DNA from: Stutzerimonas stutzeri
GTDB taxonomy: Bacteria; Pseudomonadota; Gammaproteobacteria; Pseudomonadales; Pseudomonadaceae
Assembly (NCBI RefSeq): GCF_024448985.1
Contig: NZ_JAMOII010000004.1
Coordinates: forward strand, 186,001-250,000
Direction: 5' to 3'
Length of the DNA: 64,000 nt
Part shown: positions 57,368 to 59,445 of the stretch, one piece after another
Numbering within the stretch: position 1 is the first letter of the stretch
Layout: each line of letters starts with the position of its first letter
The notes under the pieces: generated by a model
Databases searched by the model: none
The model's input: the letters and a program-made list of their open reading frames with translations, nothing else
What the model was told of the DNA's origin: nothing
Position numbers and translations under genes: made by a program

Positions 57368-57391
57368 GATACTGTATACACGAACAGTATC
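57368..57391. promoter_or_regulatory. Perfect LexA (SOS) box
   Basis: CTGT (57372-57375), eight bases, ACAG (57384-57387) is an exact match to the gammaproteobacterial LexA consensus CTGT-N8-ACAG. The symmetry extends to GATACTGT and ACAGTATC. It lies 16 bp before the radical-SAM ATG, where bound LexA would block transcription. Confidence 0.85.
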
Positions 57392-57406
57392 TCGACGCTT
57401 CTTACC

Positions 57407-58618
57407 ATGCAATTGATCGACAAACTCAGCGTTCTGGCCGACGCCGCGAAATACGACGTGTCATGCGCCAGCAGCGGCGCGCCAAAGCGCAGCTCGAAAG
57501 GCCGCAGCGGGCTTGGCGCCACTGATGGCATGGGCATCTGCCACAGCTTCACACCCGACGGCCGTTGCGTGGCGTTATTGAAGATCCTTCTGACCAACTT
57601 CTGTCTATACGACTGCCAGTACTGCGTAAATCGGCGTTCCAGTGACGTACCACGTGCGCGTTTCACGCCAGAAGAGGTAGTGACGCTGACGCTCGATTTC
57701 TACCGGCGCAACTGCGTCAGCGGCCTGTTTCTAAGCTCCGGCATCATCCGCTCGGCCGACTACACCATGGAACAGCTCAATCGAGTGGCTAAGCTGCTAC
57801 GCGAGGAGCATGAGTTCCGCGGCTATATCCACCTGAAGACCATCCCGGACGCCGACCCGCTGCTCATCGCCGAGGCCGGCCGCTACGCCGATCGCCTCAG
57901 CGTCAATATCGAATTGCCCACCGAGACCAGCCTGATCCGCCTGGCACCGGAAAAGCAGGTAGTGACGATCAAACAGGCCATGCATTCGATTCATCAAGGA
58001 GAGACCGAAGCCCAGACGGAGAAAGGTTCGCCGCGTTTCGCTCCAGCCGGGCAAAGCACACAGATGATCGTCGGCGCCGACGCAACTGACGACAGCACCA
58101 TTCTGCATACCGCACAGTCGCTATATGGCGACTTTCGCCTGCGTCGCGTCTATTACTCGGCGTTCAGCCCGATTCCGCACAGCCCCAAGACCGTGCCGTT
58201 CGAAGCGCCGCCACTGTTACGTGAGCATCGGTTGTATCAGGCCGACTTCCTCATGCGCGGTTATGGCTTCCGCGCCGGCGAGCTACTCGCCGGTCCGGGC
58301 AATCTCCCGCTGGATATCGACCCCAAGCTTGCCTGGGCGCTGTCCAACCGCGAGCACTTTCCGGTCGACCTGAACCGTGCCGAGCCGTCGTTGATCGCAC
58401 GTATCCCCGGGATCGGAATACTCAGCGCCAAACGCCTGGTCGCCCTGCGACGGCAAAAACGCATCCGGTTCGAAGACCTGACGCGGCTGCGCTGCTCGCT
58501 GGAAAAGGCCAAACCCTTCGTCATAACCCATGACTACCGCCCGCCGCTGGCCTACCGCGAGTCAGCAGCCCTGCGCCAGCAACTCAGCGAAGGCCCTCAG
58601 CAGATGGCGCTGTGGTGA
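57407..58618 (+). CDS. Radical SAM protein, putative DNA repair/modification
   Basis: A 403-residue radical SAM protein of the group often annotated as putative DNA modification/repair radical SAM protein (TIGR03916-like), which occurs with UDG-linked/DUF4130 proteins. The iron-sulfur cysteines are Cys66, Cys70 and Cys73 in CLYDCQYC. Near residues 330-360 a helix-hairpin-helix (ARIPGIGILSAKRLVALRR) suggests DNA contact. Its stop overlaps the start of the DUF4130 gene (TGATG). A perfect LexA box is in the promoter, which supports a DNA-damage role. The reaction is unknown. Confidence 0.88.
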   Translation: MQLIDKLSVLADAAKYDVSCASSGAPKRSSKGRSGLGATDGMGICHSFTPDGRCVALLKILLTNFCLYDCQYCVNRRSSDVPRARFTPEEVVTLTLDFYRRNCVSGLFLSSGIIRSADYTMEQLNRVAKLLREEHEFRGYIHLKTIPDADPLLIAEAGRYADRLSVNIELPTETSLIRLAPEKQVVTIKQAMHSIHQGETEAQTEKGSPRFAPAGQSTQMIVGADATDDSTILHTAQSLYGDFRLRRVYYSAFSPIPHSPKTVPFEAPPLLREHRLYQADFLMRGYGFRAGELLAGPGNLPLDIDPKLAWALSNREHFPVDLNRAEPSLIARIPGIGILSAKRLVALRRQKRIRFEDLTRLRCSLEKAKPFVITHDYRPPLAYRESAALRQQLSEGPQQMALW

Positions 58619-59445
58619 TGCGCCAGGTGCGCTTCGACGGCAGCTTCGATGGTTGGCGCGCCGCTGCCCGCGCCCTGCTTGGTGCGGGCGTAGCCCCTCA
58701 TGACGCCGAATGGCTGAGCGGCGACGCTCCAGGCAGTCTGTTCGAATTTTGCGACGCTTCCCCCGAGTCGACCGAGCCGTCACTGCCCATCCGTATTCCG
58801 CGGCAGCTGTTGGACGAGCTGGAAAGCGCAGCCCGATTTCGCAGCGACGACCGCTGGAGCCTCCTGTATCGCATTCTCTGGCGGGTCGCCAAGGGCGATC
58901 AGACAGCCAGGCTCGCCGGCGATATAGATGGCAGCGAACTGCATGCTCGAATCAAGGCGGTACGTCGCGAGGCCCATCATATGCACGCTTTTCTCCGCTT
59001 CAGCCCGCTGAGCAGGGTAAACGCCCCGGACTATGTGGCCTGGTTCGAGCCGGCACACGACATCCTGCTCAGTGCGGCGCCACACTTCGCCGAGCGCATG
59101 GGCCTGCATTCGTGGCTGATCGCGACGCCGGATGATGCGGTGTTATGGGATGGCCGGAACATGCACTACGCCAGCCCCTGTCCGCCCCACTGGCGGCAGC
59201 TGGCGCAAGATGTACAGGATGCCGGCGCCGAGCTGTGGAAGACCTATTACGAAAGCACCTTCAATCCGGCGCGGCTGAATCAGGTGGTGATGCAGAGCAA
59301 TTTGCCGGTGCGCTTCTGGAAGAACCTACCGGAGGGGCCGCTGATTCCGCAATTGATGAGCCGCGCCCGAGCCGGTGCGCAGCGTGACGGTCAGGCCGAG
59401 CGCGTTGCCAGCCAGCCGGGCAAGCGTATCGGCCCGCGAAACTAG
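58618..59445 (+). CDS. DUF4130 DNA-metabolism partner (no UDG domain)
   Basis: A 275-residue protein of the DUF4130/TIGR03915-like family, annotated as probable DNA metabolism protein. The characteristic part is LLYRILWRVAKGD, RREAHHMHAFLRFSPLSR, WFEPAHDILLSAAPHFAERM, WLIATPDDAVLWDG and WKTYYESTFNPARLNQ. In other bacteria this domain can be fused to a uracil-DNA glycosylase domain; here the protein ends after DUF4130. It is translationally coupled to the radical SAM gene. The start is ATG 58618; the frame is open two GTG codons earlier. Function is inferred only from the partnership. Confidence 0.85.
   Translation: MRQVRFDGSFDGWRAAARALLGAGVAPHDAEWLSGDAPGSLFEFCDASPESTEPSLPIRIPRQLLDELESAARFRSDDRWSLLYRILWRVAKGDQTARLAGDIDGSELHARIKAVRREAHHMHAFLRFSPLSRVNAPDYVAWFEPAHDILLSAAPHFAERMGLHSWLIATPDDAVLWDGRNMHYASPCPPHWRQLAQDVQDAGAELWKTYYESTFNPARLNQVVMQSNLPVRFWKNLPEGPLIPQLMSRARAGAQRDGQAERVASQPGKRIGPRN

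Follow-up and report, generated by a model that had tools for sequence, protein, structure and literature searches.

DUF4130 proteins have been predicted to be mutagenesis-related enzymes linked with SplB-like radical SAM (S-adenosylmethionine) proteins and uracil DNA glycosylases (PMC3765255, accessible parts), and the accessible parts of a comparative genomics study predict the two-gene operon COG1573-COG4277 to be under SOS control in Bacteroidetes, cite the same control for Verrucomicrobia and Alphaproteobacteria and propose a base-excision role for the operon (PMC8565304). Here we analysed a 64,000-nucleotide stretch of the Stutzerimonas stutzeri contig NZ_JAMOII010000004.1 (hereafter the window), on which a gene for a radical SAM protein of family TIGR03916 is followed by a gene for a DUF4130 protein and preceded by a predicted LexA-type box. 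We take COG4277 to be the TIGR03916 family of radical SAM proteins with a helix-hairpin-helix (HhH) motif. SOS control of this family is already known in outline and the principle is not new, since such control of the COG1573-COG4277 operon has been published for three further groups; a preliminary description of this DNA, which regarded the control of the family as unknown, did not hold on this point (PMC8565304).

In most Betaproteobacteria the SOS box reads CTGT-N8-ACAG, and the accessible text of the same source mentions, with data not shown there, SOS boxes before "DNA modification/repair" and "radical SAM" proteins of Acidovorax citrulli (PMC6595937). These boxes share their motif with the one described here, while the genes are unnamed there and may or may not be the TIGR03916 pair; the radical SAM gene is perhaps the TIGR03916 gene. 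An Acinetobacter protein bearing a TIGR03916-type name was upregulated on desiccation, according to the accessible parts of PMC13130816. Our literature search found no report of SOS control for the Pseudomonadaceae pair or for the glycosylase-less form, and no paper in which UdgX, uracil and radical SAM appear together.

The locus agrees with the TIGR03916-TIGR03915 system in that both proteins scored far above the family cut-offs and their genes are adjacent, overlapping and on one strand, but it differs in that the partner lacks a uracil-DNA glycosylase (UDG) or UdgX domain. Similarly, the COG1573-COG4277 operon combines an HhH protein with a partner under reported LexA control, as we predict here, whereas its partner is described as a uracil-DNA glycosylase and its LexA motifs are others; in the window the box is of the gamma type and the partner lacks the glycosylase. 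Our preferred explanation is that the pair probably encodes an SOS-induced, DNA-binding radical SAM enzyme and an obligate partner, which together would process DNA lesions; its two components, control by LexA and action on DNA, are judged separately below.

LexA-type sites in the window and in the genome

The LexA-type box (57368-57391, no strand assigned; GATACTGT-ATACACGA-ACAGTATC) has perfect 8-bp inverted repeats, GATACTGT and ACAGTATC, as arms flanking 8 nt, and contains the CTGT-N8-ACAG core CTGTATACACGAACAG (57372-57387, no strand assigned). It ends 15 nt before the ATG of the radical SAM gene at 57407, and not 16 bp as first described. The "perfect LexA box" of the preliminary description is accurate for the fully symmetric arms but not for the core, which deviates from the palindrome consensus at 4 of 16 positions (core score 12/16). 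The LexA-type pattern exceeded chance: within the window, ATACTGT-N8-ACAGTAT with at most two mismatches occurred once versus 0.04 expected (at least once in 4 of 100 shuffles), and the box ranked top of 26 CTG-N10-CAG sites, with 12 of 16 consensus positions versus 9 for the runner-up.

Across the genome, CTGT-N8-ACAG was found 35 times versus 14 for the reversed control, and 17 of these sites were inspected besides the window's own. Six precede lexA, recA, imuA, a divergent pair of a umuD-like gene and what is presumably an SRAP gene, topB and a PA0069-family radical SAM gene; one lies before a phage-type repressor gene and another before an unconfirmed open reading frame (ORF; L197). Core scores before the first five were 12-16/16, compared to 12 at the window's site. 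As a motif match within the own genome is by itself only suggestive, it is conservation that carries the argument.

At single sites, a perfect palindrome (CTGTATATATATACAG; L001, contig C10:45316) was seen to separate the divergent SRAP-like and UmuD-like genes, the topoisomerase III gene topB has the LexA-type site CTGTATGGATGTACAG 59 nt upstream (L187, contig C3:36489), and an RstR-like repressor gene (73.6 bits, below the cut-off of 80) has the LexA-like site CTGTACAGACAAACAG 12 nt upstream (L198, contig C34). A Shine-Dalgarno sequence was unclear at the radical SAM start (57392-57406 and relatives), where 56 of 61 close relatives showed a longest match of 0-3 nt, and it was likewise lacking at the DUF4130 starts used for comparison (0-3 nt in 57/60); the leader may be very short.

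Conservation of the box and its change between bacterial groups

Among the sampled genomes, 94 of 198 from the family (91 above cut-off) and 84 of 398 from the phylum had a TIGR03916 match. The preliminary description had proposed a search for LexA boxes upstream of orthologues across Pseudomonadaceae, and for this we used the loci above cut-off from 47 of 56 genus genomes and 64 from the sampled rest of the family (three matches below cut-off were excluded). A box was counted where a CTG-N10-CAG site within 130 nt upstream agreed with the consensus at 11 or more of the 16 positions. Such a box was present in all 47 genus loci and in 62 of the 64 others (109/111 family loci), and the full CTGT-N8-ACAG in 42/47 and 50/64, respectively. 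Both boxless loci (G067 and G094) come from genomes with LexA matches below cut-off only, similar to a further boxless locus (G555), while box and LexA above cut-off occurred together in G000, G162 and G171.

The comparison was extended to 163 distinct upstream regions, from which two duplicates, two copies of the window's own locus and loci with a match shorter than 300 aa had been left out. The gamma motif (CTGT-N8-ACAG type) was found in 68 and the motif GTTC-N7-GTTC or its complement in 77, with no region carrying both; the latter is the LexA motif of Alphaproteobacteria (PMC8565304, accessible parts). In control windows of equal length at the same loci, the gamma motif occurred in 0 of 2937 and the alpha motif in 19 of 4117. 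Another 20 loci from gamma- and betaproteobacteria, six of which repeat or share genomes already counted, included 16 with the gamma motif and four without (L201-L203 and L212). As the two motifs account for 68 and 77 regions and are never found together, the operon has, as far as these predicted sites tell, retained LexA-type boxes although the LexA motif itself changed. A control switch kept across bacterial groups despite its changed sequence makes the pair a good candidate for an uncharacterised DNA repair enzyme.

That a regulator other than LexA uses the box, or that it arose as a palindrome by chance, is highly unlikely, as its LexA consensus, its conservation and its substitution by the alpha LexA motif speak against this. 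Some observations do favour this explanation, however. The window holds 11 perfect inverted repeats with 8-bp arms and an 8-nt loop, so that arm symmetry by itself is not special, and the site L183 (contig C1:321796; CTGTCTCTATAGACAG) scores 13/16, above the 12 of the window's box, and precedes no SOS gene, the nearby ORFs presumably being nadB-like and sigma-factor-like. L183 is one of the 9 of 17 inspected sites that precede no SOS gene, and these weigh against LexA control, together with the failure to find a sigma-70-like promoter and the 18 of 163 upstream regions with neither LexA motif, which comprise three from genomes without LexA above cut-off, three from Lysobacteraceae and 12 others (some with near-matches, some with nothing). 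Nevertheless, we consider control of the pair by LexA very likely, given the motif before recA, lexA and imuA and the 109/111 family loci. The preliminary description was thus right about probable membership of the regulon, but its wording "direct support" was too strong for a predicted LexA control; overall it pointed in the right direction and overstated both novelty and directness.

The loci of Xanthomonas, Stenotrophomonas and Pseudoxanthomonas carry neither LexA motif but have GTCTCA-N5-TGAGAC near the start (L121, L154, L158 and L201-L203, with one mismatch in L202; site loci L316-L364). This palindrome occurred at three sites each in genomes G573 and G857 and at 46 sites in 26 of 40 Lysobacteraceae genomes, in which the reversed control gave none. 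The 46 sites and the three of G857 (49 loci) were assigned by tblastn to genes starting at most 400 nt downstream, namely a TIGR03817-like DEAH helicase (14), TIGR03916 (9), uvrA (2) and recA (2), leaving 22/49 not assigned. Scanning eight of these 22 gave MraZ, DnaB and Cas9 above cut-offs, RmuC and two helicases below (their ORFs being cut) and two without a match; some may be chance neighbours of the sites. The palindrome may mark a candidate further DNA-damage regulon including recA and uvrA.

The DUF4130 partner and the UdgX-like domain

The partner gene (58612-59445, + strand) starts at GTG 58612 or ATG 58618, and the latter has one base in common with the TGA stop of the radical SAM gene (58616-58618). 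Its product is a short form without UdgX domain that scored 204.2 bits against TIGR03915 (cut-off 112.25) and 126.2 bits against PF13566 DUF4130 (cut-off 27), and this, together with the 534.9 bits of its neighbour against TIGR03916, confirmed the two gene identities given previously. A DUF4130 gene followed in the same orientation at 164 of the 167 loci, two of which are copies of the window's own locus; the three exceptions lie at a contig edge. It was also present in all 20 of the further gamma- and betaproteobacterial loci, and the gap between the two genes can reach about 1 kb. Its AlphaFold2 (AF2) model had a mean predicted local distance difference test (pLDDT) of 91.8, and the fold may be RecJ-like (DHH superfamily), which is a weak assignment; in 94 DUF4130 sequences, the columns in which D, H or E exceeds 60% showed no consecutive D-H-H motif.

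We confirmed that the partner has no glycosylase domain, as NCBIfam and Pfam profile scans of the protein found no UDG domain, and the suggested search for a separate UDG-family protein, performed with TIGR03914, gave no match in the genome at E <= 0.001. At 182 loci (own copies excluded; G444 entered twice, as L052 and L215), 103 partners were long, 77 short and two cut. The extra domain matched TIGR03914 (UdgX family uracil-DNA binding protein) in the six long partners scanned, five of them above cut-off. GEQPG was found in 99 of the 103 long partners and the R-loop pattern [KR][RK][RK][IL]H, a UdgX feature according to the accessible text of PMC10359453, in 64. Many long partners thereby resemble UdgX, a cross-linking uracil-DNA glycosylase (PMC10359453 and PMC10776899, accessible parts), whereas the window's partner has no such domain; all nine Pseudomonadaceae-type long partners in the sample lack the R-loop. 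Within the genus, 5 of 56 genomes had a strong TIGR03914 match (three above cut-off), each adjoining the operon by coordinates, while 45 of the other 51 had weak matches only (about 25-36 bits) and six, including the window's, had none. In one long partner (L047, G148) the UdgX domain lacks both GEQPG and the R-loop and falls short of the TIGR03914 cut-off, as though it were decaying on the way to loss.

A quick tree of 120 radical SAM proteins (including the window's own, with near-identical rows merged) showed at least 14 switches in the presence of the UdgX domain, seven of which are forced by well-supported branches. As the domain comes and goes on the tree while the radical SAM protein and DUF4130 stay, the core pair is independent of the glycosylase domain. 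The preliminary statement that the family is usually linked to a UDG is thus borne out by the fusion in 103/182 loci but has to be qualified by repeated gain and loss, which makes the absence in the window ordinary variation. This bears on the possibility that the pair serves uracil base excision repair as an accessory system, handling wrong nucleotides inserted by SOS polymerases. Such a role would fit the fusions and the base-excision role proposed in the accessible text for the COG1573-COG4277 operon (PMC8565304); the switching of the domain and the lack of a TIGR03914 match in the own genome argue against it, and we consider it rather unlikely. The UDG-less form sets the core pair apart from uracil repair.

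The radical SAM protein and its possible chemistry

The radical SAM gene (57407-58618, + strand) encodes a protein of 403 aa, which matched TIGR03916 (curated cut-off 343.5) over residues 4-397. As described before, it contains CX3CX2C (C66/C70/C73), which was kept in 68/68 aligned sequences, and a probable HhH motif lies at about residues 319-359. Three cysteines beyond this motif, C20, C45 and C54, were likewise invariant in all 68 sequences and in four further contigs, so that a second, auxiliary Fe-S cluster on these residues is possible, and they raise a specific biochemical question.

Action of the pair on DNA is likely in our view, although some results point the other way. The protein scored slightly below the Pfam cut-offs for HHH_3 (26.1 bits, cut-off 27) and Radical_SAM (29.2 bits, cut-off 29.5), and the closest folds among the best 50 matches listed for its AF2 model (mean pLDDT 87.6) were lipoyl synthase and HydE, at 11-17% identity, neither of which acts on DNA to our knowledge. 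The HhH region also matched ComEA/RuvA profiles, with E of 0.007 and higher.

The fold matches, among which RlmN and MiaB were listed too, and the three extra invariant cysteines, reminiscent of auxiliary-cluster enzymes, would suit a radical SAM enzyme whose substrate is RNA or a protein, with MiaB-, RlmN- or LipA-like chemistry and only incidental induction by damage. This appears quite improbable to us in view of the HhH motif, the partner's fusion with a domain of a kind that binds uracil-DNA and the control motifs in common with recA and uvrA. Auxiliary cysteines in LipA are spaced CX4CX5C, which is lacking among C20, C45 and C54 of the window's protein, a further difference from LipA/LIAS and HydE besides the low identity.

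SplB and the PA0069 family, similar to the protein described here, are radical SAM proteins tied to DNA damage, but they belong to other NCBIfam families. A spore-photoproduct-lyase-like enzyme reversing or modifying damaged thymine, with DUF4130 as helper, would be compatible with the predicted LexA control and the DNA-binding motif. However, no SplB family was found among the five NCBIfam matches, nor was SplB among the best 50 matches listed in either fold comparison, which lipoyl synthase and HydE lead, and we regard such an activity as possible but not probable. The PA0069-family radical SAM gene of the own genome (NF033668; L195 1541-2635, contig C12) shares with the window's gene a LexA-type box, CTGTATGTATGAACAG, directly before its start.

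Under the preferred explanation of an SOS-induced pair that processes DNA lesions, LexA would occupy the box just upstream of the first gene of a two-gene SOS operon, and DNA damage would free the box through RecA-driven cleavage of LexA. Overlapping translation would then yield both proteins together. The radical SAM protein would contact damaged DNA via its C-terminal HhH motif, and a 5'-deoxyadenosyl radical, possibly with the second cluster on C20/C45/C54, would alter the damaged nucleotide. DUF4130, presumed to be an obligate partner because it stands beside every sampled copy with enough sequence, would hold or pass on the DNA strand. Where a UdgX-like domain is fused, the same protein may capture uracil or abasic products, a step that in this genome would be absent or done by other enzymes. 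With this control logic, damage phenotypes are expected for the pair.

A more specific and doubtful version combines a DNA-acting radical SAM enzyme bearing a LipA-like second cluster on the invariant cysteines of its N-terminal part with a catalytically dead RecJ/Cdc45-like (DHH-fold) partner that holds the strand, independent of base excision repair, with SOS control kept through the change of the LexA motif and, in Lysobacteraceae, moved to the GTCTCA-N5-TGAGAC regulon. If true, this would amount to a widespread DNA-damage-induced repair chemistry separate from base excision.

The closest named relatives are from Pseudomonas (89% protein identity). A small divergent ORF lies near the pair, as do genes that, judged by translation, are presumably pyrB/pyrC-like and pilU/pilT-like. 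In a single case, a gut contig (L314, MT835514.1, upstream of 3501), what we take to be a Gram-positive-like LexA motif, CAAACAAATGTTCG, lies near the radical SAM start. In a record named Acinetobacter phage MD-2021a (L315, CAKLQH020000003.1), glyS and glyQ adjoin the pair, and the record resembles a bacterial chromosome.
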